Shown here one piece after another: positions 29,256-46,699 of a stretch of 64,000 bases of DNA. Every line of letters begins with the position of its first letter. The stretch's first letter is position 1. The stretch spans positions 713,579-777,578 of the forward strand of contig NC_007955.1 of NCBI RefSeq assembly GCF_000013725.1. Reading direction: 5' to 3'. The DNA is from Methanococcoides burtonii DSM 6242. GTDB lineage: Archaea; Halobacteriota; Methanosarcinia; Methanosarcinales; Methanosarcinaceae. The translations under genes and the position numbers were made by a program. The notes beneath the pieces are model-generated. The model was not told the origin of the DNA, searched no databases, and saw only the letters and a list, made by a program, of their open reading frames with translations.

Positions 29256-30089
29256 TCAACGTCTGCTTTTTATATCCATAATGTACATGATCGCACCTGC
29301 TACGATGGCGAATATGATCCATCCCAGATGTGTGTGGACGACCCGCATGGCTTCCAGTCCGTAGTAATATGCTGCAAGGTAAAGGATTGTAACACGCACA
29401 AGGTTTGCAATGTATGATACAATTATTGCAAATCCAAGTAGATTGAGTGTTTGACCGAGTTTCATTTTTTCCATTCGGCTGTAGCCAGCGACTATGCCGA
29501 TCAGAAGGAACATGGAATAAAGTCCGGAGCATGGACCTCCGATAATTATTGTAAGATCTTCAACTCCGGCGAGATAGACCGTTTCAATGCCTACAACATC
29601 AACTGGTATTCCGAACAACTGAATGATCGTAACTGTTGGTATCAATACTAAATAGTGATCGAACACATGGAGAAATCCAATGTCCAACATCCCGAACAAG
29701 GAGTAAAAGATCAGGTACAGTACGGTGAATACGCCTGAAATATAAGCACCAAATTCTCCGAGGTGTCGAAGTTGTGGTCTGTCAGTTCCATATGCTACAA
29801 GTGATGCTCCAAAGAAGAAGGTCATTGAATCGAGAGTGCCAAGATCGCTGCCTGCTCTGAAATTGTAGAACAGATCCGCAAAGACGATCAGTGCTCCAAT
29901 TAGTATATAAAATTTTGAAGCTCGAATGTCCTTTCTTTCTGACATTCGTATCTGTGTGATCGCAGCAACAGCAGCCAGAAGCAATATCACGCCTATGGTT
30001 GTCGACCCTTCACTAAGTTCTATGGTGGCACCTATGAAAAGTGCAAGTGTCAAAAGGATGAAGAGTAAAGTTTTATCGCTTTTTATCAT
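29256..30089 (-). CDS. artC: archaeosortase C, PEF-CTERM processing enzyme
   Basis: 277 residues, about eight membrane helices. The exosortase/archaeosortase triad is visible: Cys187 in GGPCSGLYSM, Arg232 in ANLVRVTIL and a His in VHTHLGW (252 or 254). The family cleaves C-terminal sorting signals and probably transfers the protein to a lipid anchor. Pairing with the PEF-CTERM protein at 24560 points to the ArtC type. GTGATA precedes the start. Next genes on the other side are glycan genes, the usual context of exosortase-like systems. Confidence 0.9.
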   Translation of the reverse strand: MIKSDKTLLFILLTLALFIGATIELSEGSTTIGVILLLAAVAAITQIRMSERKDIRASKFYILIGALIVFADLFYNFRAGSDLGTLDSMTFFFGASLVAYGTDRPQLRHLGEFGAYISGVFTVLYLIFYSLFGMLDIGFLHVFDHYLVLIPTVTIIQLFGIPVDVVGIETVYLAGVEDLTIIIGGPCSGLYSMFLLIGIVAGYSRMEKMKLGQTLNLLGFAIIVSYIANLVRVTILYLAAYYYGLEAMRVVHTHLGWIIFAIVAGAIMYIMDIKSRR

Positions 30090-30370
30090 GATTTTATCAC
30101 TTGATCATTTTATAGTTGAGCATGTATACTTTAATTAACATAAGTGTGTAAATAACAAGTATCCCTCTGTGATATCTTGGTGCTCCCCTCTCTCTACCTT
30201 GGTTATATTGTTATATTAATATTTAGGTTGTAACATTTCATAACGCAATAATTATATGGGTTGAATATTATATATGTGATACTAATGCTTATTATGTTTA
30301 CAGTATATAATCTAATTTCAAATGCCTTATGCTTATAATAAAACGAATGTTTACAACGTTGGTGGTGAAA

Positions 30371-31171
30371 ATGATCCGTGATTTTACCTTATCTAAATAC
30401 AGGGAACTTCTTGAAACAATAGTAGATACGGAATATGAGCCAATCGCTGTAATTGATCATTTTAATTCTGGCCGGGTGGATAACAAATGCATCATTTTAA
30501 GGCATGATGTGGACAGGGTTGTGCAGCGATCTCTGGATATGGCCCGACTGGAAAATGAATATGGCATTCGTTCGACCTATTATTTCCGGCATACTCCTGA
30601 TGTGTTCAAACCTGAGTTCATGCACAAAATTGCAGATCTTGGTCATGAGGTAGGTTTTCACTATGAAGTTATGGATAAGGCAAAGGGTGATACTTCTGCA
30701 GCGATCAGGATATTTGAGGATGAGCTTCGTGAACTAAGGGAAATTGAGCCTATACTGACTGCATGCATGCATGGTAATCCTCTGGCATCATGGTCAAATC
30801 GTGATCTTTGGGAAGATCATGACATAAAGGATTTTGGGATCGTGGCAGAACCTTATTTATCCATCGATTATAGCAAGGTTCTCTATTTGACGGATACCGG
30901 AAGAACCTGGGCAGATCAGAAGATCAGGGTAAAGGATGTTCTGGACGATGTAGCCAACACTCTTTCATATTCTGGTGGTTCTATCGCTACAACAGATGAT
31001 GTTATCGATCTTGTTAGAAAAGAAGAAATACCTCAGATGTGTATACTTGCACATCCAAATCGTTGGTGTGATGGGAGTATTGGGTGGACAAAGGAATTGC
31101 TTATGCAGAATCTGAAGAATGTCGGAAAAGCTGGCATTGTCTGGTACAGAGGCCGAAAACCTGAGGTCTGA
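30371..31171 (+). CDS. polysaccharide deacetylase-like (NodB homology) protein
   Basis: 266 residues. The NodB-fold signatures are ILRHDVDR (metal-binding Asp pair) near residue 43, TYYFRHTPD, and GHEVGFHYE (metal-binding His). A later HGNPL and an ILAHPNRW block complete the active-site region. Such enzymes remove N-acetyl groups from surface polysaccharides using Zn or another divalent metal. The ATG at 30371 with GGTGGTGA is preferred over an ATG 42 bases upstream. No signal peptide, so it acts in the cytoplasm. First gene of the forward glycan cluster. Confidence 0.85.
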   Translation: MIRDFTLSKYRELLETIVDTEYEPIAVIDHFNSGRVDNKCIILRHDVDRVVQRSLDMARLENEYGIRSTYYFRHTPDVFKPEFMHKIADLGHEVGFHYEVMDKAKGDTSAAIRIFEDELRELREIEPILTACMHGNPLASWSNRDLWEDHDIKDFGIVAEPYLSIDYSKVLYLTDTGRTWADQKIRVKDVLDDVANTLSYSGGSIATTDDVIDLVRKEEIPQMCILAHPNRWCDGSIGWTKELLMQNLKNVGKAGIVWYRGRKPEV

Positions 31172-31186
31172 ACACGGTATAATTAT

Positions 31187-32188
31187 ATGATCGAGATAAC
31201 TGATTCACTTGACCCTGAAGTATGGGATGAATTCGTCTATGAGCACCCTCATGGCAATATCTTCCAGACATCTTCTATGGCTAATGTTTACCGACAGGCT
31301 AAGAACTATGTCCCACTCTCATTAGCTGCGATTGATCCTGGTAATGGTGAAGTTCTGGCCATTTTACAGGCATCCATCATAAGTGAGCTGAGTGGTATTG
31401 CAGGAAGCTTTACCGGCAGGAGTGTCATTATAGGTGGTCCCCTTGTGAAGGATGGGAAAAGGGGAAATGAAGCATTGTCTCTTTTACTGAAAGAGTACAA
31501 TAGTTCAGTCAAAAGCAAAGTGGTCTATTCGCAGATGAGGAATATAAGGGATACATCTGAGATCAAAGAGACTATTTTGTCATACGGATATGAGTATGAT
31601 CAACATCTGGATTTCCTTATTGATCTGGACCGGGACGAAGCAGAGATATGGTCTGATATAAGTAAATCCCGCCGGAAAGGTGTCAATCGCGCAGAAAAGT
31701 CCGGTATCATCATCCAAAAAGTAAAAAATGATGCCGAACTGCAAGCGTCTTATGATCTGATCCATCAAACTTATCTAAATGTGAAAATGCCGGTTGCTGA
31801 TTTTTCACTTTTCAAAGCAATCTATGATGAGTTCGTTCCAAAGGATATGGCTGACTTCTTCATTGCCCTGCAGAACGATATCCCTGTAGGTGCACGTATA
31901 ACTCTTAATTACAAAGACCTTGTATATGATTGGTATGCAGGCTCATTGGCAGATGTCCCTTATGTAGATGAAGCACTTGTATGGAAGATACTGAGTGAGA
32001 ACGCTGGTAAATATAAAGTGTTCGATTTCGGTGGTGCCGGTCATCCTGATAAGCCGTATGGTGTCAGGGAATTTAAGAGGCGCTTTGGTGGGGAACAGGT
32101 GAATTATGGTAGGTATAAGAAGGTGCATGGGAAAGTTAGGGGTAAGATGGCTGAGGTTGGATATGGAGTTTATAGGGGATTGAAGTGA
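31187..32188 (+). CDS. FemAB/GNAT-type aminoacyl or acyl transferase
   Basis: 333 residues composed of two GNAT-like halves as in FemAB proteins: DEFVYEHPHGNIFQTSSMANVYR at the N-terminus and, in the second half, FFIALQNDIPVGARITLNYKDLVYDWYAGS and FDFGGAGHPDKPYGVREFKRRFGGE. Bacterial relatives add amino acids to peptidoglycan, but related proteins occur in exopolysaccharide loci. Here an acyl or aminoacyl transfer to a surface glycan is likely. It follows the deacetylase by 15 bases, the same gene pair as in bacterial PEP-CTERM/exosortase loci. Confidence 0.85.
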   Translation: MIEITDSLDPEVWDEFVYEHPHGNIFQTSSMANVYRQAKNYVPLSLAAIDPGNGEVLAILQASIISELSGIAGSFTGRSVIIGGPLVKDGKRGNEALSLLLKEYNSSVKSKVVYSQMRNIRDTSEIKETILSYGYEYDQHLDFLIDLDRDEAEIWSDISKSRRKGVNRAEKSGIIIQKVKNDAELQASYDLIHQTYLNVKMPVADFSLFKAIYDEFVPKDMADFFIALQNDIPVGARITLNYKDLVYDWYAGSLADVPYVDEALVWKILSENAGKYKVFDFGGAGHPDKPYGVREFKRRFGGEQVNYGRYKKVHGKVRGKMAEVGYGVYRGLK

Positions 32189-32231
32189 TGTTTATTATTT
32201 CTGTATATGTTGACAATGGTGGTATCAAACA

Positions 32232-33266
32232 ATGAAGATACTTCTTGATATAGGTCATCCCAAAGATTTTAATGTCTTTAAAAATGTCATTATTTCACTT
32301 GAAGAGATGGGTCATACAGTTAAGATTTTTGTGCGTGCAAAAGAAAGCACTAAAAGAATGCTTGATGATGCAGGATTTGAGTATGATGTATGCCCTTATT
32401 ATAAAAGTATGGCTGGAAAAGCATTAGGAATTTTTGCTAACGATCTTCGCCTTTATAAAATTGCTAGAAAGTTCAAGCCAGATGTATTTATCAGTCCTGG
32501 ATCCCCATATTCTGCTCATGTAAGTACTTTAATGAGGAGACCCCATTTGGCATTTTCTGATACTGAAATTGCCGGTCTTGTCACTATGTTGACATTACCT
32601 TTTACAGATAAGATATACACTTCAACATCATTTTATCTTGACCTTGGTCCTAAGCAGGAACGCTTTAAAGGTTATTATGAGTTGGCTTATCTCCATCCAA
32701 AGTACTTCAAACCCAATAAAAATATTTTAGATAAATATGGTCTGGAAGAAGGCTACATTCTATTAAGATTATCTGCACTTGCTTCTCATCATGATCTTCA
32801 TGCAAGTGGCTTTAACTTTGAGACTGAGGATGATCTAAAGGATTATATTTCTTCTTTAGAGAAATATGGTAAAGTAATTATTTCTTCTGAAAAGTCGGAT
32901 TGGAATACAATTAAAGATTACCAGCTAGAATTCGATCCGGATGATCTGCATGATCTTATCGATTGCGCATCCATCTGTTTGAGTGAAGGTGCCACAATGG
33001 CTTCAGAAGCTGCAGTGCTAGGAATTCCTTCGATATATGTTTCAAATACTGAAAGAGGGTACTTGAATGAATTAGAGATGGAGTATGGCCTTGTTTATAA
33101 TATTCCTGATCGGGAAAAAGCTTTGAAAAAAGCAATAAGTTTGTTAAATGAAGTATCTACTAAAGATATTTGGAGACTTAAAAAAGAGAATATGCTCGAG
33201 AATACTGATGATATAGTTGAATTTATTATAGAAAAAACCTTATCTCATGTTTCATCTCCAAATTAA
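32232..33266 (+). CDS. DUF354 protein, glycosyltransferase/epimerase-like
   Basis: 344 residues with the GT-B-like fold of the DUF354 family: N-terminal MKILLDIGHPKDFNVFKNVI, KPDVFISPGSPYSAHVS and the C-terminal DLIDCASICLSEGATMASEAAVLGIPSI, which resembles the UDP-sugar binding site of UDP-GlcNAc 2-epimerases. Probably acts on a nucleotide sugar in surface-glycan synthesis; the exact reaction is unknown. From this gene on, the DNA becomes clearly more AT-rich than the two preceding genes. Confidence 0.82.
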   Translation: MKILLDIGHPKDFNVFKNVIISLEEMGHTVKIFVRAKESTKRMLDDAGFEYDVCPYYKSMAGKALGIFANDLRLYKIARKFKPDVFISPGSPYSAHVSTLMRRPHLAFSDTEIAGLVTMLTLPFTDKIYTSTSFYLDLGPKQERFKGYYELAYLHPKYFKPNKNILDKYGLEEGYILLRLSALASHHDLHASGFNFETEDDLKDYISSLEKYGKVIISSEKSDWNTIKDYQLEFDPDDLHDLIDCASICLSEGATMASEAAVLGIPSIYVSNTERGYLNELEMEYGLVYNIPDREKALKKAISLLNEVSTKDIWRLKKENMLENTDDIVEFIIEKTLSHVSSPN

Positions 33267-33312
33267 TTTATTCAATTATAATTCATTCATATTTATTAGA
33301 TTGGTGAGATCA

Positions 33313-33762
33313 ATGATAGTACGCAAATTTAAAAAAAAAATACTGAAATATTTTGCAAAAAATCTCCCTTCTTATAAATTAAGAATTCGGATGTACAAAA
33401 GTTGTGGCTATTCAATTGGTAAACAGGTATACATTGCAGAAGGTTTAACAATTGCTGAAAAGTTAGAAGATTCGGATAATCTTCGTATTGATGACAGGGT
33501 TGCAATTGGGCCCAATGTTATTTTGGTCACTTCATCTGATCCAAATTTTTCAAAAATTTGGGATTCTGTAAAAATTCAACGAGGTAAAATTATTATTAAT
33601 AGTGATGCATGGATTGGGGCAGGTGCAATAATCTTGCCTGATATTACAATTGGAGAAGGAGCTATTGTTGGTGCTGGTGCTGTTGTGACTAAAGATGTTG
33701 AAGCATTTACTAAAGTTGCTGGGGTTCCGGCAAAAATAATTGGTTTAATATCTTTGAAATAA
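33313..33762 (+). CDS. hexapeptide-repeat (left-handed beta-helix) acyltransferase
   Basis: 149 residues. Repeated hexapeptides (AIGPNVILV, IIINSDAWIGAGAIILPDITIGEGAIVGAGAVV split over the middle and C-terminal parts) and the ending KVAGVPAKIIG are typical of WbbJ/LacA-type O-acetyltransferases that form trimers and use acetyl-CoA. A GGTGA ribosome binding site selects the ATG at 33313; the longer frame from 33247 overlaps the DUF354 gene. Probably acetylates a sugar of the glycan assembled by this cluster. Confidence 0.88.
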   Translation: MIVRKFKKKILKYFAKNLPSYKLRIRMYKSCGYSIGKQVYIAEGLTIAEKLEDSDNLRIDDRVAIGPNVILVTSSDPNFSKIWDSVKIQRGKIIINSDAWIGAGAIILPDITIGEGAIVGAGAVVTKDVEAFTKVAGVPAKIIGLISLK

Positions 33763-33867
33763 TTATTGTGTTGATTGTTGGTTCTCATACACATTTTACG
33801 ATATAATAAATAGTATTAATTTGTATAAGTATACTAAAATGATTAGAACTATAAGGAATGCTTATTG

Positions 33868-34752
33868 ATGAACTCTAATTATATTGTTGTAACTCCGTGC
33901 AAAAATGAAGAAGCAAATTTGCCACATCTTGCACAATCTATAATTAAAAATACAATTCATCCAGTTCTATGGGTAATTTATAATGATGGGAGTACTGACT
34001 CGACAGGAGATGTTATTTCCAATTTAGAAGGATCGCATGCATGGATAAAAGGGCTTGAAGGTGCAATTTCAAAACGTGATCTTGGATTCCATTATTCTGA
34101 TATAGTTGAATATGCGATTCGATATGCTATCAATAAATGCGACAACAATAATATAGACTTTGAATATATCGGTTTAATTGATGCAGATATGATATTGGAT
34201 CTGGATTTTTTTGAAAAAATGTTAATTAGATTTGAAAACAATCCTAAAATTGGAATATGTAGTGGAACGGTAGCTTATCTTAATAATGGCATAAAAGTTC
34301 TTGAGAAAGGTCGGTCCAATCATCCACTTGGTGGATTGCGTATGTGGAGCAAAAAATGCTATTATGACACTGGTGGCTTCCCGAAAAGTTACTCTGCAGA
34401 TTCGGTATCAAATGTATCAGCGATGTTGCATGGGTGGGAAACCAAGAAATATGATGATGTTGTTGGGGTTCAGACCAGAAGAACAAGTAGTGCAGAAGGT
34501 CTTTGGAAAGGCTATGGAGTAAAAGGAACATCTGATTATTTCAGGGATTATCATCCAATTTATGTCCTGTTCAAGTTTTTGAAGTATTCTCTTAGCTATC
34601 CCTTTTATACTGGAGTTGCTTATTTGTCTGGGTACATTAATGGAATTGCTTGCGTTAAGAATAAATTGGATAATCCTGAAATCAGATCATATTATAGGAA
34701 TAAGCATATTGAGGTCATGAGGTATTATTTTGAAAAATTTAAAAATAGCTAA
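33868..34752 (+). CDS. family 2 glycosyltransferase
   Basis: 294 residues with a GT-A fold: YIVVTPCKNEEANLPHLAQSI at the N-terminus, YNDGSTDSTGDVI, and the metal-binding IGLIDADMILD near residue 108. An aromatic C-terminal half without clear membrane spans follows. It transfers a sugar from a nucleotide or lipid-linked donor onto the growing surface glycan; acceptor unknown. Its end overlaps the start of the GT-C membrane gene by 23 bases. Confidence 0.9.
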   Translation: MNSNYIVVTPCKNEEANLPHLAQSIIKNTIHPVLWVIYNDGSTDSTGDVISNLEGSHAWIKGLEGAISKRDLGFHYSDIVEYAIRYAINKCDNNNIDFEYIGLIDADMILDLDFFEKMLIRFENNPKIGICSGTVAYLNNGIKVLEKGRSNHPLGGLRMWSKKCYYDTGGFPKSYSADSVSNVSAMLHGWETKKYDDVVGVQTRRTSSAEGLWKGYGVKGTSDYFRDYHPIYVLFKFLKYSLSYPFYTGVAYLSGYINGIACVKNKLDNPEIRSYYRNKHIEVMRYYFEKFKNS

Positions 34753-36283
34753 TGATGTAAGTTTATTAGTTTCAAAAAAAACTCAAGCAACCTTACTTAG
34801 TTTACTCTTACTGCTGAATTTTGTAATTAGGATTCCGAGCATACCTCATGAAAAAGGATATGATTCTTTTTTCATTCATACACTGGCTAACTCAATTACT
34901 ATTAATGGCACTTGTGAATGGTGGATCAATTGGTTATCTGTGTTTGGTTTATATCCATATTCCTATGCAAGTGCGGTTCCATTTATGCTTTCAGAAATTG
35001 CACAGATGACTGGGCTGGAAATGGAAAAAGCAATTTTGGTGTATTGCATAATAGCTGGCTTGCTTGGAATGTTTACTTCATATCTTTTAGCTGGGCAGAT
35101 ATACAATGATTTCAAATTTAAGTATATTATGTCATTATTTTTCTCGTTAGCACCAGGAGTTATGGTTTTTACTACTTGGGAAGTAAGTACAAGAGGTTTA
35201 TTCATTGTATTATTCCCATTTTTTATTTACTTACTGCTAAGAATTGATAAAACAATCAAAAAATATATTTTATTAACAATTTGCTTTGTTTTGCTTTTTG
35301 CAACACATCATTATGCTTATTTTTTAATTCCTGTTATTGTAGTATATTTTTCACTCAATATATTGAAAAAAGTGAATATTCCACATTTCAAAAAAAATCA
35401 TCTGAATTACATATTTTCATTTGCAATAATTGCACTTATTCTTGTTCCTTTTTTTGAACGTTCGTTGGTAGAATCTGGTTCGAGATATGCATGGTTGATT
35501 GATGCTTTAATTACAAATATAAGATACACAGGTCCAGCATTGATTTTGGCATTTGGGGGGTTGGTATATTTACTGCAAAAAAAGAAAAGTTTCAACGAAA
35601 TCATATTTCTTTCGTTATTAATACTATTTCTACCCACAATATATTCTCTTACATACGGTCCGTATTTTTTAGTTTTATTTATTGTTTTTTTAGCATCTAT
35701 TTCATTTGGTAACATATTAAATTCACTGGCTATTCATAAAAATAAGCTGTTTGCTTTATTTGTCATTTCTATCATTGTTTTTTCGGTAGCATTTTCTAGC
35801 TTTTATAACCATAATAGAACGGGAGATTCGGAATCTTATTGGTATATGCCACATGAAACATATACTGCAGGAATATGGGGTAAGAACTATATTCCGGACA
35901 ATTCGTATGGGTTGGATACAGCTTTTGAAACAGGGCGATTGTTTGCTATTTCTGAAGGTCACCCAATTACTCCATCACTTGGCCCGGGTAATCTTGCATA
36001 TGGATTTATTGACAAAAATGATATACAATATACAAAAAATTCACCGTTTAGCAAACAGTACTATTTTGATGGTCCATATTCATCGAAGGGGAGTACTTAC
36101 TCTGGTCGCGTTGAATGGTTGAGACAGTACGGAAAAAATATAGAGGATTTAGAAGAATATACTTATTTTGTAGAAGATAAGTATTATTACAAACCAATAG
36201 TAAATATTATTCATTCAGAGTCTAACAAAATATATGATGCTACCCGTATTGCATTGTGGGAAATAGATGTTGAAAGGAAGTGA
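34730..36283 (+). CDS. polytopic GT-C-type glycosyltransferase / oligosaccharyl-transferase-like protein
   Basis: 517 residues with about eleven membrane helices up to residue 365, then an external domain of about 150 residues. The first external loop carries RIPSIPHEKGYDSFF, where the acidic motif of GT-C enzymes (STT3, PMT, ArnT) is expected. It should use a lipid-linked sugar donor outside the membrane. The start is a TTG at 34730 with TGAGGT six bases upstream, inside the preceding gene. Whether it modifies protein or glycan lipid cannot be told. Confidence 0.75.
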   Translation: MKNLKIANDVSLLVSKKTQATLLSLLLLLNFVIRIPSIPHEKGYDSFFIHTLANSITINGTCEWWINWLSVFGLYPYSYASAVPFMLSEIAQMTGLEMEKAILVYCIIAGLLGMFTSYLLAGQIYNDFKFKYIMSLFFSLAPGVMVFTTWEVSTRGLFIVLFPFFIYLLLRIDKTIKKYILLTICFVLLFATHHYAYFLIPVIVVYFSLNILKKVNIPHFKKNHLNYIFSFAIIALILVPFFERSLVESGSRYAWLIDALITNIRYTGPALILAFGGLVYLLQKKKSFNEIIFLSLLILFLPTIYSLTYGPYFLVLFIVFLASISFGNILNSLAIHKNKLFALFVISIIVFSVAFSSFYNHNRTGDSESYWYMPHETYTAGIWGKNYIPDNSYGLDTAFETGRLFAISEGHPITPSLGPGNLAYGFIDKNDIQYTKNSPFSKQYYFDGPYSSKGSTYSGRVEWLRQYGKNIEDLEEYTYFVEDKYYYKPIVNIIHSESNKIYDATRIALWEIDVERK

Positions 36284-36288
36284 TCTGG

Positions 36289-37404
36289 ATGAAGCTTGTT
36301 TATTACTACCCTATGTCAAAAGGTGCCCCTTCTAATGTTGCAAGAAACGTCTTTGAAGCGTTAATTGCCAAAAAAGATAAATTACCTTTTGATGAAATTA
36401 TCCTTTATACGAATAATAAAAATAAAGTCATATTGGGTAAAAAATATAGTGATATAAAAATCTTTACTGGTAAAGATATTCTTAAAATAAAAAACAGTAT
36501 TGTTCATATCCCGACAACTCCTTTAGTTTTTCCAAACAGTAAATTTTTACTTCATGTCTTTGCAAAAATTAAGAAAAATAAATTAATTTTGAATTATCAT
36601 GGGGATATTTGTAAAGAACTTGTTTTGAGATACAAATATGATCATAAATTAGAGCTTTCTAAAATACCGACTTGTATTTTACTACCTATTTTATTATTTA
36701 GTTCAAACAAAAATATTGTAAACTCATATTCACTTGCAAATATATTTAAACATAGATATGGGCTTGGTAATATAGAGGTTGTACCAAATGCTATAGATAA
36801 TTGTTGGTTTTTGAAAAGACATGAATTTATTAAAAAAAGTGATAATTCGATCAAAATATTTTACCATGGACGTTTATCTCCGGAAAAAGGAGTTGATTTG
36901 CTAATTAAGGGATTAAAGTTATTTTTATCTACAAAGTCGGGTTCAACTAAAATTTACCTTTATATAGCAGGAGACGGTCCACAGATGCAATATTTAAAAG
37001 CATTGTCAATACAATTAGATATAGTTGACAATGTGATTTTTCTGGGGAATCTCAACCAAAAAATGATTATAAAATACTTACAAAAGGTTGATGCTGCCAT
37101 TTATCCATCGATTTTGGATACTTTTGCTCTAGCTATTTTAGAAGCTTTTGCTTGTGCAGAATGTCCTGTATATTTTTCAAAAAAAGCTGGTATTTATGAT
37201 TTTATTATTGATGATGGATATGTACTTGGTGCATTTGAACCGAATGTCGAAAATATATCAAACATAGTTAGTTCTATTTTCGAAAAGTCAAATAAAAACG
37301 ATAATATAATTGAGCATCAGAAAAAGTTTGCTGAAAAATATAATTGGACATCTGTCATAGATTATTATATCTCGATTTATCGAGAAATGTATCATGCTAA
37401 TTAA
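36289..37404 (+). CDS. family 4 glycosyltransferase (1)
   Basis: 371 residues, GT-B fold. The C-terminal donor-binding half has IKIFYHGRLSPEKGVDLLIKG, LYIAGDGPQMQYLKAL and AAIYPSILDTFALAILEAFAC, with the catalytic-type Glu in the E-X7-E pattern slightly altered. The N-terminal acceptor half is divergent. Extremely AT-rich. It overlaps the GT-C gene if translated from the GTG at 36280, so the ATG at 36289 is preferred. Sugar specificity unknown. Confidence 0.88.
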   Translation: MKLVYYYPMSKGAPSNVARNVFEALIAKKDKLPFDEIILYTNNKNKVILGKKYSDIKIFTGKDILKIKNSIVHIPTTPLVFPNSKFLLHVFAKIKKNKLILNYHGDICKELVLRYKYDHKLELSKIPTCILLPILLFSSNKNIVNSYSLANIFKHRYGLGNIEVVPNAIDNCWFLKRHEFIKKSDNSIKIFYHGRLSPEKGVDLLIKGLKLFLSTKSGSTKIYLYIAGDGPQMQYLKALSIQLDIVDNVIFLGNLNQKMIIKYLQKVDAAIYPSILDTFALAILEAFACAECPVYFSKKAGIYDFIIDDGYVLGAFEPNVENISNIVSSIFEKSNKNDNIIEHQKKFAEKYNWTSVIDYYISIYREMYHAN

Positions 37405-37431
37405 ATTCATTCAAAGTATGGGTCGATAAAT

Positions 37432-38565
37432 ATGCTTCATAAAAAGTCTCAAAATTGTGTTCTTTCGATTTGCGATATATCCCCAATTCGTTTTGGTTCA
37501 TTTGAGGATTTTTTAGTCGTAATGACTGATGAATTAAATAAAAAAGGATTTAAACATGTTATTATATTCAGAGATAGGCCTATAAAATGCGTAGAGGATA
37601 CTCTTTTAGCATCTAATGCAGAAATAAAAATATTGAAGCCAACAAGATCAAATATTTATATTTTTATGGAATTATATCAAATTCTAAAAGAAATTCGCCC
37701 AAATATTGTACATTTTCATTTTTATCCAATTTATTCAAGTCTCAATTATTTGAAGTTTTTCTTCAGTATCAAAATTGTATATACTGATCATATGGGTAGT
37801 AGAGAACTAAAAACACCTTTTAAAAAAGCACTTCGAAAATTATATTATAAAACCCACTCTATTTTGTTCAATTGTGGTATTGATAAAATCGTTTGCGTTT
37901 CGAATTATATAAAATTGAAATATTCCAAAGAATATAATATACATTCTAGTAAATTACTTGTAATCTACAATGGGGTTAATTTAAGAAAGTTCCAACAAAA
38001 TATAGATACAACAAAGTTAAAAGAAAAATTGAATATTAAAGATGAATTTGTGGTTTCAACTGTAGGTCTAAGGGCTGACAAAGGTGTGAACTGCTTAATT
38101 AAAGCTATACCAAATATCATAAAATCTATGCCGAATACTAAATTTATTTTGGTGGGTGAAGGTGAATGCCGAAGTTATTTAGAAAGAATGGTAGATAACC
38201 TCAAGCTAAATAATTACGTTGTGTTCACAGGTAATATGGTGGATATATCGGGTATATACCAAATATCTTCCTGTGTAGTAGTTTCATCGTTGGTTGAAGA
38301 AGCATTTTGTTTTGTTGCAGTAGAAGCAATGGCTGCAGGAACACAAGTAATAGCATTTGATTCGGGTGCACTTCGGGAAGTTCTTTATGATTTAGATCAA
38401 TTGATTCCAAAAAATTATACTTTATTATCTCAGAAAATAATTAAATGTCTTAAAACGAATAATATTAATAATAATGTGATGATGCAATATGTCGGCAGTA
38501 ATTATTCTCTTGATAAATGTGTTTATAATTACATGCAATTATATGATGAAATATTAAAAAAATAA
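37432..38565 (+). CDS. family 4 glycosyltransferase (2)
   Basis: 377 residues, GT-B fold. Features are an N-terminal SICDISPIRFGSFEDFL, the middle KLLVIYNGVNLRKF, and donor-site blocks VVSTVGLRADKGVNCLIKAI, FILVGEGECRSYLE and VVSSLVEEAFCFVAVEAMAAG (E-X7-E). It resembles GT4 enzymes that use UDP- or GDP-sugars in capsule and lipopolysaccharide synthesis. Codon use is heavily AT-biased, as in the rest of the cluster. Confidence 0.9.
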   Translation: MLHKKSQNCVLSICDISPIRFGSFEDFLVVMTDELNKKGFKHVIIFRDRPIKCVEDTLLASNAEIKILKPTRSNIYIFMELYQILKEIRPNIVHFHFYPIYSSLNYLKFFFSIKIVYTDHMGSRELKTPFKKALRKLYYKTHSILFNCGIDKIVCVSNYIKLKYSKEYNIHSSKLLVIYNGVNLRKFQQNIDTTKLKEKLNIKDEFVVSTVGLRADKGVNCLIKAIPNIIKSMPNTKFILVGEGECRSYLERMVDNLKLNNYVVFTGNMVDISGIYQISSCVVVSSLVEEAFCFVAVEAMAAGTQVIAFDSGALREVLYDLDQLIPKNYTLLSQKIIKCLKTNNINNNVMMQYVGSNYSLDKCVYNYMQLYDEILKK

Positions 38566-38709
38566 TGTCATTTGGCATTTATTCTCACAGTAAGTTCTTA
38601 ACAATAATTATCTATAGTTTACTGGTCATGATATCCTATCAATTATGTTGTGATTAACTTTCTAGATTCATAATTTGAATTACACTTTACATTTTATCGT
38701 GGTGTTGGT

Positions 38710-39831
38710 ATGAAACCTATTAAATTAGTATATGTTGCAGATTGGAACCCCTTAACAGGTGGTGCTTTCACGGTTTTAGATAATTTAATTAATACTATTT
38801 TAAAATATAAGTATCCAATAGAAATTCATGTTGTTTCATTTGGAAATAAAAATGAAACTAAACATCAAAAGGGCTATACTATTCATTTAGTAAAAAATTG
38901 TATCTTTCCAACTTCTCAATATTGGTACTCTCCTAAGCTTTTAGAAAAAAAGATTGTTGAAATTAATCCTGATTTAATTCACTTGCATTTTACTTATCCC
39001 CCCTATTCATTTATATGCCGCTTGCCTATTCCTACTGTAGTCACTACTCATGGTTTAGTTTCTCTTCGAATTAAAGGAGCACATTCAAAAAGAAGTCAGT
39101 TGTCTCCTTTTTTCATTCTTGGACCTTATTTTGAAAAAAAAGCACTCAAAAAGGTGGGGAAAGTGATTGCAGTATCTACATATATGAAAAATGAAGTGGA
39201 AAAACTGATTGGTCCTAATCAAAAAACAGTTTACATACCAAATGGTATTAATTATGAAGAATATACCAATCCAGATGTTATTAACGATATTACTCATCCA
39301 TCTATCTTTTGTGCTGGTCGATTTATTAAAATGAAAGGTATTGATGTTCTCATCAAAGCTTTACCTATTATTAAATTATCAATTCCTGATATACACTTAT
39401 ATATTGCTGGAGATGGTGATCAATATAAGTATCTTCAGTCATTAACTTTCAAATTAGATTTACAAAAAAATATTACATTTTTAAATTTCATCGCGAAATC
39501 TAAAATGATCCAGATGTTTGCTTCAACTGACTTGGTTGTTGTTCCTTCGAGATACGAAAGTTTTGGTATGGTCGCGTTAGAAGCCTTATCATCTGGTAGT
39601 CCAGTTGTAGCATCAAGTGTGGGTGGCATTCCTGAAATGTTAGATAATGGAAGATATGGGATGTTAGTGAAACCTAATGATCCAAAAGAATTAGCACAAC
39701 AAATAATATATATTTTTAATAATTCAAATATAAGGAAAAAAATGAGTTATGCTGGAAAACAAAGATCACAAGATTATTTATGGGATGATATTGCAAAAAG
39801 AACAATTGAAGTGTACTTATCGCTTCTGTAA
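38710..39831 (+). CDS. family 4 glycosyltransferase (3)
   Basis: 373 residues, GT-B fold, with VADWNPLTGGAFTVLDNLI at the N-terminus, TVVTTHGLVSLRIKGAHSKR, then ERFIKMKG-like donor region (CAGRFIKMKGIDVLIKALPI), LYIAGDGDQYKYL and VPSRYESFGMVALEALSSGSPV carrying the E-X7-E pair. A 144-base gap separates it from the previous gene; the next, a flippase gene, follows after 14 bases. Sugar specificity unknown. Confidence 0.92.
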   Translation: MKPIKLVYVADWNPLTGGAFTVLDNLINTILKYKYPIEIHVVSFGNKNETKHQKGYTIHLVKNCIFPTSQYWYSPKLLEKKIVEINPDLIHLHFTYPPYSFICRLPIPTVVTTHGLVSLRIKGAHSKRSQLSPFFILGPYFEKKALKKVGKVIAVSTYMKNEVEKLIGPNQKTVYIPNGINYEEYTNPDVINDITHPSIFCAGRFIKMKGIDVLIKALPIIKLSIPDIHLYIAGDGDQYKYLQSLTFKLDLQKNITFLNFIAKSKMIQMFASTDLVVVPSRYESFGMVALEALSSGSPVVASSVGGIPEMLDNGRYGMLVKPNDPKELAQQIIYIFNNSNIRKKMSYAGKQRSQDYLWDDIAKRTIEVYLSLL

Positions 39832-39845
39832 TTGCCAGGTTTCAA

Positions 39846-41282
39846 ATGTCTACTATTGAAAATATTGTAAAGAATACTAGTTTTTTACTTGTAGGTAGGT
39901 TATCGACTAAAATTATTAGTTTTTTTATTTTGCTTTATATAGCGCGTTATCTAGGCCCAGACGATTTTGGAAAATTTTCGTTTGTTTTTGCATTTGTATA
40001 CTTTTTTGCTTTCATCCCAGATTTAGGTATTCATAATATACTTGTTCGTGAAGCTGCAAAGGAACCGGCAAATGCTGGCATATTAATAGGAAATGCTACT
40101 GCAATAAAAATAGTACTTTCGTTAATCGCTATTTTTCTGGCATTTTTCACAATAAATTTAATGGATTATCCTATTTCTACAAAAAATGCGTTATACTTAG
40201 CTTCGATTGGATTACTAATTACCAATCTGAGTGCATTTGGAATTATATATGAAATTAAGCTCAGAATGGAGTACTCAGCACTTTTTAGTGTGACGAGTAG
40301 GATAATTTTCTTAATGCTGGTTCTTTATGGTGTCCTCCAGAACTCAACTTTACTTTTTTTTGTATTTGCCTCGATTTCAGCTGATTTTGTACATAACATA
40401 TTAATGGTTGTGTTTTCAAAAAGGTTCGTCAATGTACAATTTAATTTTGATTACAAACTAATTAAACAGATTTTACATGAAGCATTACCGATAGCATTGG
40501 CTAGTGTTTTTGTTATGATTTATTTTAGAGTTGATATATTAATGTTATCTTTTTTAAAAAATGATGTTGATGTGGGACTTTACAGTGCTGCCTACCGTTT
40601 TACGGAAGCTTTCATATTTGTACCTTCTATATTGATGACTTCAATGTTTCCATTAATGTCGAAATATTTCAAAGAATCATTTAATCTATTTGTTTATTCA
40701 TATGTCAAATCCTTTAAGTACCTCTTTGCTTCCGGTTTGATACTTGCAATCATAGTATCCTTCCTGGCTGATGTCATTATTTTAAAAGTGTATGGATTAG
40801 AATATAGTGGTTCGATATCTGCATTACAAATTTTGATATGGGCAACTTCGATTATGTTTATAAATATTCTTCTTAGCTTTACGTATATCTCAAGTGGAAA
40901 CCAGGGTGTAATGGCAAAGTTGACAGCTTTTGCAGCGTTTTTCAATATAGCATTAAATTTCATATTCATTCCATCTTTCAGTTACAATGGAGCAGCAATT
41001 TCGACTATGATTACTGAACTTGTAGTAATGGTATTTGGAATATATTGGATCAACAAAAACATTTGCCATAAAAGTTTGTTTAATGAGGGTGTTTATCCCT
41101 TGATTGGTGTTCTTATAATACTGTTATTTTACACAATGTTCAAATTATATGTTAATAATTTTATTCTTTGTGCAGTATCAATATTAATCTATATTGGTGT
41201 ACTTTATGGCACAGGATGGATTGATTCAGATGATAAAAACTTCGTAATAAAAGTGATCAACCACCTAAAAACTTATTTATAA
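39846..41282 (+). CDS. Wzx-type polysaccharide flippase (MATE/MVF superfamily)
   Basis: 478 residues with twelve to fourteen membrane helices. The N-terminal SFLLVGRLSTKIISFFILLYIARYLGPDDFGKFSFVFAF is the classical start of O-antigen/teichoic-acid exporters, and YFRVDILMLSFLKNDVDVGLYSAAYRF is the conserved motif of helix 7. It should flip the lipid-linked glycan built by the cluster across the membrane. It is the last gene of the cluster, closed by a strong terminator. Confidence 0.93.
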   Translation: MSTIENIVKNTSFLLVGRLSTKIISFFILLYIARYLGPDDFGKFSFVFAFVYFFAFIPDLGIHNILVREAAKEPANAGILIGNATAIKIVLSLIAIFLAFFTINLMDYPISTKNALYLASIGLLITNLSAFGIIYEIKLRMEYSALFSVTSRIIFLMLVLYGVLQNSTLLFFVFASISADFVHNILMVVFSKRFVNVQFNFDYKLIKQILHEALPIALASVFVMIYFRVDILMLSFLKNDVDVGLYSAAYRFTEAFIFVPSILMTSMFPLMSKYFKESFNLFVYSYVKSFKYLFASGLILAIIVSFLADVIILKVYGLEYSGSISALQILIWATSIMFINILLSFTYISSGNQGVMAKLTAFAAFFNIALNFIFIPSFSYNGAAISTMITELVVMVFGIYWINKNICHKSLFNEGVYPLIGVLIILLFYTMFKLYVNNFILCAVSILIYIGVLYGTGWIDSDDKNFVIKVINHLKTYL

Positions 41283-42309: not shown

Positions 42310-45300
42310 ATGAAAAAGGTTACAAAATTATTCTTTTTATTAGGGTTGTTATTAGCTACGATTGATATTGGTTCTGCATCGATTTCGTATAATTCTGATT
42401 ATAATCAAATTTTAGTCAAAGACGAAGTGTCTATTAATTTAACAGATATTTATGATGCTTTGTATCCAACATATGGTGATCAGCTTATTTCAAATGCTGG
42501 AAATGGGATTTGGTACTTAAATAAGACACTACTTGTTGATAGGTCTACGGTCTATATTACTTCTCCAGAAGTGACTGAATTAAGGGTAAGTGGGTCTACA
42601 GGAGTACATTTGCATGGAACTTCTACTGGTAGTGATGGTAAAGGGTATATTATTGAAAATGTTACTATTGTTGGTTGGCTAAAAGATTTTAATATGCCTG
42701 ACAACACGGTTTCAAAAAAATCGATTAATATTGACAAAGGTCATGTTTCAAATTCGGTTTTTAAGAATGTGTCTACACTAAAACTTTACAATGTATATGA
42801 TACTGATATAAATAATATTGAAATGGAATCTACTTCGGGTTCACTTGAAATCGCAGACGGTAACAATAGTACAGTTCATGAGATTGCACTTTATAATACT
42901 TCGGGATTTTACACTTATGATCTTGAAAATTTTATTTTTCATAATATTACAGTAAAGGACGTGCACTCTATTGGAACCATTAGGTTCACAAGAACAAGCC
43001 ACAGCTTATTCTATGATTTTGTAATCGAAAGAATAGGCAGTTATTTGAAGCCTGGCTCAGGTGGGGGATTATATTGGTATGACTCGTCCTACAACACTGG
43101 ATCTGATTTTTATATAAATGATACTGGGTGGAGTAGTTTTGCACCAGGAAACAATTATGGTAATTGGTCGGATTTAACTATACTTAATTCTGGACACAAT
43201 GGTATCGATTTGCACAACATCAAAAATACGATAATAAATAATGTACATGTTTATGATAGTGTTAGTAATAATATCCTATTAACCGCGGGTCTTTCAGATA
43301 GTCCTTCAACTGAAAATATCACAATTACAAATGTTTATTCAAAAAATTCGGGTATTGTCTCTCAGCAAAATGTTTCGGATATTTATTTAGCTAATATATA
43401 TCAGGAAGGTGATAGAGATGGTATGGGAATCTCTGTTCAAAATTTTACACTAATTAATGCAACTTTTGCATCTCTTAATAGTGATGCTCAAGTAAGTATT
43501 TATGATTCATTTGGATTTGAAAATACAAATTGTAATTTAATTGATACATCATTTTATCACTTAAATGTAGTTGCGGATAGAAGGATTAATTTGATAAATT
43601 CTGAATATCAAACCACCTATCATAAAAATCATGTTACACATTACTATTCTGATTTATTTGTTACATATTCAAATGATATTCCAGCAGCAGGTGCAACTAT
43701 TGCAGTTGAAAATACAGTAGATTCGTCACATTCGAGTTTGAATGGTTTTGGTAATGACAAGTCCATGTTTTTAACTACATCGAATGGTCATACTGAATTA
43801 CCAAATGAGAATCGTAGTGAATCTCCTGCTATGCCTGAATATTATAAAAGTTCGGCTGGAACTCAGACTTTCTCCCACACAGCTACCATCACTACTCAAG
43901 ATGGGCAAACTCTCACCCTTCCAAATATCACTCCAGATTCATCATGGTATCGTCCAGATCCAAACACGCCAACCTATTCCATAACGGCAATAATGCCAGA
44001 TGAATCTGCAGGACCCCACCTCACAGGGTTTGCACCAAGTGAAAGTAATCCTTTCAACATTGGTAACACTAAAAAATTCCAGGTATGGTCTGATGAGGAT
44101 ATGACATCAATGAAATGGATCGTTGATGGTGAAACAAAGCAATCAACTTCTCTTGAATATGCATGGACAGTACCGGATGAGAATGGACACACTATCATAT
44201 TTGAAGGTACCAATGCGAATGGCATAATAACTAAAACGTGGGACATCAATGGCGGCTCAGGAAGTGTGTTGCCAGCCATTACCGGCGCATTTCCGGGAAC
44301 TTCTTCACGATCTCAGGAGCTTGGCAGTTCCACTGATTTCAGTGTAACTGCTGATCAATCCATGACCTCTATGGTCTGGTACAAGAATGATGCTGTCATT
44401 GCAGATGGTGTTATGAGTACTACAGTTGATTGGAATGAACCGGGCACTTATAATATCAGGTTTACTGCTTCAAATGATAATGGAGAGGTCTCTAGATCAT
44501 GGGAAGTGGTTTCTAATGAAGGTGCTCCTATCCTAAGTGATGATCTCTCAGTAAATAACGCACCTGTCATTACTACATTCGGACCTGCTAACAATACGGT
44601 CTTCCAGGAAGGAAACGTTATAAATATTGGTGTAATCGCTTCTGATGCAGATGGAGATGAACTCACTTATCTTCTGAAGGTCGATGGTGCTACTGTCAGT
44701 ACAACCTCTGGTTATGTGTGGACTACTGATAGTTCGAACATAGGTGCTCATACAATTGGAGTTGTTGTGAGTGATGGTGTTGAACAGGTTACAGACCAAC
44801 ATACTATCATTGTACAGAATATTGTTGATGTTGGAGTTACTCCAGTAGTTATGTCCTCTTCAGCTCAGATCGTTTCTCCGGGACAACCTTTCAGCATCGG
44901 GATCTCTATTGACCCATCTGAACCTGTCTCAGGTGCTCAATTAGACCTCCTCTTTGATGAACAACTGGTATCTGCAGAAGGTACAATAGAAGGTGACCTG
45001 TTTAATCTGAATGGTGCATCTACTCTGTTCAATAGTGGTACGATAGGCGACAGTGGAGTAATTACAGATATCTACTGCTCTATCATAGGTGCAGCCCCTG
45101 TATCATCAAAAGGAACTATGGCAACAATTGCTTTTACTGCAGGCAATACTGCCGGAGTTGCAGAATTTAGCTTGTCAGATGTAGTGATCAGTAATGCAAG
45201 ATCAGAAGGAACTCCTTATACTGTCACTGATACAATGGTCGTTATCGATACTGCACCTGTCTTGAATTCTATCGGTGATAAGACCGTGGATGAGGAAAAC

Positions 45301-45690
45301 GCACTGACCTTTGTGACCAGTGCCTCGGACGCAGACGGTGATAGCCTTACATACTCAGCTACAGGTCTGCCTGTTGGTGCAAGCTTTGATACTGCATCAG
45401 GTGCATTCAGCTGGACACCTTCAGAGGGTCAGGAAGGTACCTATGCCATTGCTTTTGAAGTGAGTGATAGCTACCTTACAGATTCAGAAACCATTAGTAT
45501 CGCTGTAAAATCACATCCAAGGTGGGATATTAACAGGGATTGTGCAGTGAATATTCTGGATATTACTCTGGTGAGTCAGAAGATTGGAACTGATGGTGCA
45601 GGTACAGATCAGGACGTAAATCAGGATGGTGTAGTGAACATCCAGGATCTTACTCTGGTAGCCCAACACTTTGGCGAAACAGTAGAATGA
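42310..45690 (+). CDS. large secreted protein: beta-helix, Ig-like repeats, cohesin and dockerin
   Basis: 1126 residues. A signal peptide (1-22, cleaved near GSAS) precedes a parallel beta-helix-like region (about 40-560) with many N-glycosylation sequons. Three Ig-like domains follow (about 567-837; e.g. ITTFGPANNTVFQEGN). A cohesin-like domain covers 847-980 (PFSIGISIDPSEPVSGAQLDL), then a cadherin/He_PIG domain 982-1067. The C-terminus is a type I dockerin with two calcium-binding repeats, DINRDCAVNILDITLVSQ and DVNQDGVVNIQDLTLVAQ. It lacks a membrane anchor, so the dockerin should hold it on a cohesin partner; one is encoded next door. Confidence 0.9.
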   Translation: MKKVTKLFFLLGLLLATIDIGSASISYNSDYNQILVKDEVSINLTDIYDALYPTYGDQLISNAGNGIWYLNKTLLVDRSTVYITSPEVTELRVSGSTGVHLHGTSTGSDGKGYIIENVTIVGWLKDFNMPDNTVSKKSINIDKGHVSNSVFKNVSTLKLYNVYDTDINNIEMESTSGSLEIADGNNSTVHEIALYNTSGFYTYDLENFIFHNITVKDVHSIGTIRFTRTSHSLFYDFVIERIGSYLKPGSGGGLYWYDSSYNTGSDFYINDTGWSSFAPGNNYGNWSDLTILNSGHNGIDLHNIKNTIINNVHVYDSVSNNILLTAGLSDSPSTENITITNVYSKNSGIVSQQNVSDIYLANIYQEGDRDGMGISVQNFTLINATFASLNSDAQVSIYDSFGFENTNCNLIDTSFYHLNVVADRRINLINSEYQTTYHKNHVTHYYSDLFVTYSNDIPAAGATIAVENTVDSSHSSLNGFGNDKSMFLTTSNGHTELPNENRSESPAMPEYYKSSAGTQTFSHTATITTQDGQTLTLPNITPDSSWYRPDPNTPTYSITAIMPDESAGPHLTGFAPSESNPFNIGNTKKFQVWSDEDMTSMKWIVDGETKQSTSLEYAWTVPDENGHTIIFEGTNANGIITKTWDINGGSGSVLPAITGAFPGTSSRSQELGSSTDFSVTADQSMTSMVWYKNDAVIADGVMSTTVDWNEPGTYNIRFTASNDNGEVSRSWEVVSNEGAPILSDDLSVNNAPVITTFGPANNTVFQEGNVINIGVIASDADGDELTYLLKVDGATVSTTSGYVWTTDSSNIGAHTIGVVVSDGVEQVTDQHTIIVQNIVDVGVTPVVMSSSAQIVSPGQPFSIGISIDPSEPVSGAQLDLLFDEQLVSAEGTIEGDLFNLNGASTLFNSGTIGDSGVITDIYCSIIGAAPVSSKGTMATIAFTAGNTAGVAEFSLSDVVISNARSEGTPYTVTDTMVVIDTAPVLNSIGDKTVDEENALTFVTSASDADGDSLTYSATGLPVGASFDTASGAFSWTPSEGQEGTYAIAFEVSDSYLTDSETISIAVKSHPRWDINRDCAVNILDITLVSQKIGTDGAGTDQDVNQDGVVNIQDLTLVAQHFGETVE

Positions 45691-45717
45691 GATGCAGAGA
45701 GTGCATCTCTTTTTTTC
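45689..45717 (+). terminator. terminator after the dockerin gene
   Basis: GAGATGCA (45689-45696) and TGCATCTC (45702-45709) form a perfect eight-base-pair stem with a five-base loop, followed by seven T. Confidence 0.7.
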
Positions 45718-46018
45718 GTTATGGTCTACTAATTCGAAGGCTGTTTTCCATACATATTTCTTTTAATTTTAATCTCAAAGTAAATATTACTGCATAAGAT
45801 TATACTGTTTTTTGAATTTAGTTTAGTAGGTCAAATATATATTGATCCTGATCATTGAAGATCGAGCAGGTAAAGGATAAATCTCATTATAATTATGTTA
45901 ATAACAGTCATGTTTATCTCACAATGTTTATATGGCACCAACACATTAGGGATTTCAAATATCTTGATCCGTGGTGATCATAATTCTGTTATCAGCACAT
46001 TTCAATAAGGGATAAAAT
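45718..46018. other. intergenic region upstream of the cohesin gene
   Basis: No coding frame. A TATA-like GTTTATATGG lies at about 45924-45933, a usable promoter for the cohesin gene; AAGGGAT at 46007-46013 is the ribosome binding site. Confidence 0.4.
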
Positions 46019-46699
46019 ATGTTTAGCATAAGAAAAGTCCTCTCAATAGTTGCTATAATCGCATTGGTGGTAGTTTTAAGCAATATTTCTGCAGCTTCTA
46101 CAGATGTAATTCTGAATCCATCGTCACAGATAAATGAACCTGGAAGTGCTGGTACTTCTTCACCGGGCATGGCTTTTACTGTTTCATCAGGTGAAGTTTT
46201 AAATGTTGCACCTGGCGAGACTTTCAATGTCGATGTCTTCGTTTCTCCGGATGTTGATATTGCAGGAATGCAGTTCGATCTGCTTTTTGATAGTTCCAAG
46301 TTCCAGATCGACAGTGTAACTGAAGGGAACCTGTTCAAACAAAGTGGAATGGGTACTTTTTTTGTTGCTGCGTCTGTAACACCGGGTTTACTCGATAATA
46401 CCTACGGTTGTATTCTGGGTAATGCAGCTGTCTTAACACCAGCAAACTTTGCCACTATCACAATTACAGCAAATGAACATGCAAGTGGAAGATCAGCGTT
46501 CATCTTAAAAGATGTTATTGTCAGTGATCCAAAAGGCAATGCTGTTAATGTTGGAATATTAAACACAGAAGTTGCCATCCTGGTTTTCGATATTTCTTCG
46601 GAGCATGTGGTCGAATACAATGATTTCGATAGAGTTCAGGAGAATTCCGACGTGATTCCCGGGTCAATAACTGTGCCTGGAACTGTACCCGGAACATGA
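46019..46699 (+). CDS. secreted cohesin-domain protein
   Basis: 226 residues. A signal peptide (1-26, ending ISAAS) is followed by a short linker and one cohesin domain (about 60-190), with VAPGETFNVDVFVSPDVDIAGMQFDLLFD, VTEGNLFKQSG and ATITITANEHASGRSAFILKDVIVSD matching the family pattern and the neighbouring cohesin in the dockerin protein. The end SITVPGTVPGT is Pro/Thr-rich, with no anchor. It is a plausible receptor for the dockerin of the upstream protein. Its own promoter and the terminator before it suggest separate transcription. Confidence 0.85.
   Translation: MFSIRKVLSIVAIIALVVVLSNISAASTDVILNPSSQINEPGSAGTSSPGMAFTVSSGEVLNVAPGETFNVDVFVSPDVDIAGMQFDLLFDSSKFQIDSVTEGNLFKQSGMGTFFVAASVTPGLLDNTYGCILGNAAVLTPANFATITITANEHASGRSAFILKDVIVSDPKGNAVNVGILNTEVAILVFDISSEHVVEYNDFDRVQENSDVIPGSITVPGTVPGT

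Follow-up and report, generated by a model that had tools for sequence, protein, structure and literature searches.

What role could cohesin and dockerin domains play in a methanogen? Such domains in archaea and other non-cellulolytic organisms have long been listed with no role assigned to them, two inventories included (PMC9012536; PMC5244752), and the question is raised again by a stretch of 64,000 nucleotides of Methanococcoides burtonii DSM 6242, here called the window (contig NC_007955.1, 713,579-777,578, of a genome that is a single contig of 2,575,032 bases). Two neighbouring open reading frames (ORFs) in the window encode proteins predicted to be secreted: A, which joins a beta-helix to a cohesin and a dockerin, and B, which has a cohesin. 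A third cohesin lies elsewhere in the genome, on the membrane-anchored PGF-pre-PGF protein C. Our answer, which we hold at roughly even chances, is a minimal cohesin-dockerin device, non-cellulolytic in nature, that fastens A, an enzyme-like beta-helix protein, to the cell surface, where A would act on extracellular polysaccharide of the cell itself.

One dockerin and three cohesins

ORF A (42310..45690; window features are on the + strand unless marked) encodes a predicted secreted protein of 1126 amino acids, as judged from its Pfam domains and from inspection of its start, an ATG at 42310 with a Shine-Dalgarno-like GGAGG upstream. Its parts follow in the order signal peptide, beta-helix, a poorly modelled stretch, PKD and Big_7, cohesin, He_PIG, and C-terminal dockerin. 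The putative signal peptide (42310..42372) was recognised by its charged start and hydrophobic core, while Pfam places the immunoglobulin (Ig)-like PKD and Big_7 domains at 44308..44763 and the Ig-like He_PIG domain at 45253..45507.

The original prediction gave A a cohesin and a C-terminal dockerin of two repeats, and both hold up. The dockerin (residues 1070-1124, 45517..45681, from Pfam and a family profile) matches Dockerin_1 over residues 1073-1120 (E 2.4e-7, 31.3 bits; cut-off 22.9) and agrees with the type I dockerin (PF00404) in score and in its two D-x-N-x-D...D calcium loops, DINRDCAVNILD and DVNQDGVVNIQD. Missing calcium ligands would have counted against the prediction, and both loops are complete. 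The cohesin (PF00963; residues 855-965, 44872..45204) is absent from the domains listed by a Pfam protein scan of A but reaches 32.5 bits (cut-off 24.1) in a six-frame search, and its predicted structure aligns with those of solved cohesins (Z about 12, 2.6 Å over 129 residues).

Searching the whole genome for further cohesins and dockerins, as had also been proposed, yields three cohesins over the cut-off (A, B, and C) and one dockerin, that of A. No further dockerin exceeds the Pfam cut-off, and a 14-row Methanosarcinaceae dockerin profile finds none beyond A's at E up to 10. A weak Pfam dockerin match at 1363 kb sits in a PKD-type repeat protein and was rejected, and a fourth cohesin candidate at 1763 kb was left out of the count as weak (12 bits). 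Since the genome holds only three cohesins and one dockerin in total, the presence of two of the former and the sole recognised example of the latter within 4.4 kb is not chance.

The third cohesin belongs to anchor protein C, of 429 amino acids (gene at about 108.0-109.3 kb; cohesin at C1:108794-109102 in genome coordinates, from Pfam). C consists of a signal peptide, the cohesin (41.8 bits; cut-off 24.1), a PGF-pre-PGF domain (E 3e-54), and a C-terminal hydrophobic segment, and its gene is intact. By these predicted domains C corresponds to a cellulosome-type anchor, a cohesin on a surface-anchored protein, and its cohesin is the more likely docking site, one that the original prediction missed. 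Two congeners have a TAG in their C gene; reading it as pyrrolysine was rejected because it precedes the likely start. In M. seepicolus (G021) and a Methanococcoides metagenome-assembled genome (MAG; G023), the C-type anchor gene is frameshifted (L151, L152) and the anchor beside B is kept, the reverse of the window genome; both are draft assemblies, so sequencing error is possible.

The label "scaffoldin-like", which had been attached to A and B, does not survive the census: the three cohesins lie singly in three separate ORFs, with no polypeptide carrying several. A cellulosome would further have several dockerin-borne plant-polymer enzymes, and only one dockerin protein occurs genome-wide. 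The accompanying proposal, that the system organises a surface assembly rather than degrading cellulose, gains support.

ORF A closes a polysaccharide cluster

Upstream of A lies a polysaccharide-type cluster (30329..41282), annotated by domains, with genes for a FemAB-like protein, DUF354, a hexapeptide transferase, a family 2 glycosyltransferase (GT2), a multi-transmembrane (multi-TM) protein, three GT1/GT4 proteins, and a Wzx-type flippase. An archaeosortase C gene stands at its edge, just before it (29256-30089, -).

The tie between A and this cluster recurs across genomes. The A beta-helix is present in 16 of 186 Methanosarcinales genomes, and of 16 genomes searched for the single-copy multi-TM gene (34730..36283), 15 gave a single match each. 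In all 14 genomes with a full-length copy, the distance to the A-type gene is 2.0-11.3 kb; the fifteenth match is partial (29% identity) and about 29 kb away. Random placement would produce a neighbour this close in about 1% of genomes, a chance that shared ancestry forbids multiplying across genomes into an overall probability. By gene order, A belongs to the predicted polysaccharide-synthesis cluster and closes it. The original prediction saw no plant-polymer enzyme here; that polymer enzymes are absent altogether is doubtful, since A starts with a beta-helix of the polysaccharide-enzyme type and closes a polysaccharide cluster.

Within the cluster, A is probably transcribed on its own, because a gap of 1027 bases separates it from the upstream flippase and a terminator-like stem-loop with a T tract, a consensus match only, follows directly 3' of it (45689..45709). 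The stem-loop also suggests that A and B are separate transcripts.

The beta-helix of A and its relatives

The right-handed beta-helix domain (residues about 22-452, 42373..43665) is defined by an AF2 model, fold matches, and conservation. The model, of residues 22-545, was built on a three-sequence alignment and has a predicted template-modelling score (pTM) of 0.70. Its top Foldseek match is the alginate epimerase AlgG (E 4e-5); the VIA Z is 27-28 for AlgG and the Sf6 tailspike (3.1-3.7 Å over 315-328 residues) and 22-27 for AlgE, polygalacturonases, RbmB, and PL6 lyases. At the level of fold, then, the modelled domain is of the polysaccharide-enzyme type. A profile of ten A-family members also matches polygalacturonases of glycoside hydrolase family 28 (GH28) by sequence (E 2e-5), the only common motif in the alignment being the GH of GHG; A itself has no glycoside hydrolase match in Pfam at E up to 1.

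The domain has a conserved GHNGIDLH at residues 295-302. All ten members share W274, H296, N297, D300, and H302, and S275, S317, N320, and N321 are nearly invariant; E replaces D300 and H302 in three further members. Because the conserved groups are spaced about 21-24 residues apart, or one helix rung, they may form one site on the modelled helix. Equating the GHNGhDhH motif with the DPH catalytic motif of AlgE was rejected, as the aligned ranges place it, by estimate, several rungs off.

The dockerin accompanies this helix. It follows the A beta-helix in all 16 Methanosarcinales genomes that have the helix, although in one the gene is broken and the dockerin falls in the following ORF; a cohesin is also present in 13 of the 16. 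Close relatives of the window genome are Methanococcoides alaskense, M. seepicolus, and M. vulcani. Elsewhere in Methanococcoides, dockerins of this kind stand behind beta-helices, several of them with Disaggr_assoc (PF08480), in proteins that also bear Disaggr_repeat/CBM96 or CBM9 domains. In other genera, small lone cohesins and cohesin/PGF-pre-PGF anchors adjoin A-type genes (G006, G007, G083, G084, and G096), the anchor in G083 being broken. Some of the small lone cohesins (L133:12612-13196, L134:12017-12769, L142:3316-3846, and L145:9024-9587) have short tails that resemble amphipathic helices and could seat them on the membrane.

A proposed docking mechanism

We propose that A is exported and held at the cell surface by its calcium-dependent dockerin, the likely socket being the cohesin of C. 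In that position A would modify or simply bind the extracellular polysaccharide that the neighbouring cluster (30329-41282) produces. The cohesin of A would let further A molecules dock, and short chains are possible, since A's dockerin is the sole one found and A's cohesin could take only another A. The cohesin of B would cap, or compete for, the dockerin of A. The domains, their copy numbers, the genomic linkage, the decay of B, and the selection on its cohesin are shown, while the pairings and an action of A on polysaccharide are inferred. In favour of the mechanism, besides the linkage to the cluster, the fold of the helix, and the anchors beside A-type genes, a dockerin occurs among 112 genomes of the family in 40 of the 43 with a C-type anchor versus 25 of the 69 without.

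Several results weigh against this mechanism. The beta-helix fold includes non-enzymes, as NosD, which is no sugar enzyme, has a VIA Z of 25 to A. A was rejected as a GH28 polygalacturonase, the profile alignment lacking Asp at the NTD and DD sites, and as a disaggregatase in the window genome, where A matches neither disaggregatase Pfam model and Disaggr_assoc finds no match genome-wide at E up to 10; the A profile matches the congeners' disaggregatase-type helices weakly (76% probability over 123 columns). In a single-chain AF2 model of the C-terminus of A, the dockerin is low-confidence, and C is encoded away from A. The counts of anchors and dockerins across the family are uncorrected for relatedness, and a strong dockerin occurs without any C-type anchor in 16 genomes.

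Some of these points suit a different role for the helix, in which it is non-catalytic, either polysaccharide-binding or S-layer-like, and ties the coat to the membrane through the dockerin and C. NosD and tailspikes show that the fold can serve binding, A's family has not kept the residues that carry out catalysis in the nearest enzymes, and the linkage to the cluster fits this reading too. Yet the invariant polar residues H296, N297, D300, and H302 resemble an active or binding site, and the congeners have disaggregatase-related helices. We consider such a tether, with nothing cut or epimerised, rather unlikely.

We judge it similarly unlikely that A builds a self-assembling fibre, each molecule plugging its dockerin into the cohesin of its neighbour, head-to-tail, with a structural or adhesive beta-helix and with B capping the chains. 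A has both domains, as do 13 of the 16 members of its beta-helix family, it carries the sole dockerin found in the genome, and its Ig/PKD/cadherin-like repeats fit an adhesin. The cohesin is absent, however, in three of the 16 members and in most of the congeners' A-type dockerin proteins, which argues that chaining is not the conserved part, and a fibre leaves the polysaccharide-cluster linkage unexplained.

ORF B is a shortened adaptor

B (46019..46699) is a predicted secreted protein of 226 amino acids. The original prediction took it for a lone cohesin, and the cohesin is clear: residues 63-176 (46205..46546) score 52.8 bits (E 6.1e-14) in the Pfam protein scan and 53.5 bits in the six-frame search, against a cut-off of 24.1. 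A sequence search of the PDB with B returns only one weak, unrelated match. The lone state is not original, since most other Methanococcoides have a cohesin+dockerin adaptor in its place. In eight of their loci, which like B lie upstream of three conserved genes (47246, 47647, and 48471), the counterpart of B joins a cohesin to a dockerin of two repeats, and a second cohesin+PGF-pre-PGF gene comes next. Compared with these congeners, the window genome has a first dockerin repeat that lacks some ligands (DISSEHVVEYND, 46586..46660), no second repeat, and no neighbouring anchor gene. B is, as judged from these comparisons, a secondarily shortened cohesin+dockerin adaptor whose dockerin has decayed.

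The second repeat can still be recognised in M. alaskense, though in another frame, and the B genes of the two species apparently end at the same TGA. This fits one frameshift common to both, with DNA beyond it too diverged for proof. Between the two species the B cohesin shows a synonymous divergence (dS) of 0.55 and a nonsynonymous divergence (dN) of 0.146; the ratio of about 0.27 indicates that the cohesin has been kept under purifying selection after the dockerin was lost, if the loss is shared by both. That the system is a decaying remnant in M. burtonii, with A and B no longer sharing a function, is improbable: B's dockerin and the adjacent anchor gene have indeed been lost, but the dockerin loops of A are complete, C is intact, and the B cohesin retains this low ratio against M. 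alaskense.

Implications and further cohesin arrangements

The docking mechanism may extend beyond M. burtonii. More tentatively than for the single genome, and with somewhat less than even confidence, we suggest that Methanosarcinaceae edit their own exopolysaccharide with cluster-encoded beta-helix enzymes that plug through a dockerin into membrane-anchored PGF-pre-PGF cohesins, with cohesin+dockerin adaptors extending the reach, a modular form of capsule editing. From the linkage follows a role for archaeal cohesins and dockerins that is concrete and can be tested, namely to keep a protein that acts on polysaccharide at the cell surface. The window genome is the simplest case, its single dockerin and three cohesins being few enough for all pairings to be tested at the bench.

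Other arrangements were seen in passing. In one Methanosarcinaceae genus (g10; L096-L100 and L103), proteins of about 640-765 amino acids bear three cohesins apiece. Some 4-5 kb from them is a protein of about 500 amino acids with one cohesin and often a C-terminal hydrophobic segment; the larger proteins are scaffoldin-like multi-cohesin proteins in methanogens outside the anaerobic methanotrophic archaea (ANME). Cohesin proteins of about 180-192 amino acids with a C-terminal hydrophobic segment, or mini-anchors, adjoin large cohesin proteins in L101, L102, L104, and L105, and one neighbour in L105 matches Laminin_G_3. In a Dehalococcoidia MAG (L112:71-7668), three adjacent proteins end, by inspection, in dockerin-like repeats, and two of them also have a cohesin-like domain.

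Comparison with known systems

One close precedent is Archaeoglobus fulgidus, in which one of two neighbouring genes encodes a cohesin and a dockerin and the other a cohesin. To our knowledge, no polysaccharide cluster or PGF-pre-PGF anchor has been reported there. The M. burtonii set is likened to it by description, not sequence, as both concern cohesin and dockerin proteins of a non-cellulolytic archaeon (Bayer 1999; Haimovitz 2008, as cited in PMC9012536). Archaeal cohesin-dockerin pairs have been verified to bind (PMC9012536).

The same domains are known from related archaea through inventories of ANME and methanogens (PMC9012536; PMC5244752), including ANME dockerin proteins with up to five cohesins (PMC9012536) and four cohesin and two dockerin domain hits already counted in M. 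burtonii DSM6242 (PMC5244752, Table 2). In their available portions these inventories list domains and describe no linkage of a beta-helix to a polysaccharide cluster, PGF-pre-PGF cohesin anchor, or decayed adaptor, and a limited literature search returned no report of the cluster linkage, the anchor, or the adaptor. The domains of M. burtonii have thus been counted before, whereas the tie to a polysaccharide cluster and the membrane-anchored socket appear to be undescribed.

Among enzymes, the epimerase AlgG and the polysaccharide lyase RbmB share the right-handed beta-helix with A, a likeness that holds for the fold alone at 9-14% sequence identity. Both are encoded with exopolysaccharide or biofilm-matrix genes, and we know of no dockerin on either. 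The disaggregatase of Methanosarcina mazei degrades the matrix polysaccharide methanochondroitin (PMC12369344); related Pfam domains occur in the congeners' A-type dockerin proteins, unlike in A of M. burtonii, which matches neither model. The clostridial cellulosome with its anchoring scaffoldin offers a parallel in design, as it pairs dockerin-bearing enzyme-type proteins with a surface-anchored cohesin, and the cohesin+dockerin adaptors of the congeners add to the likeness. M. burtonii differs from it in having no multi-cohesin scaffoldin, only one dockerin protein, and, presumably, its own polysaccharide as the target.

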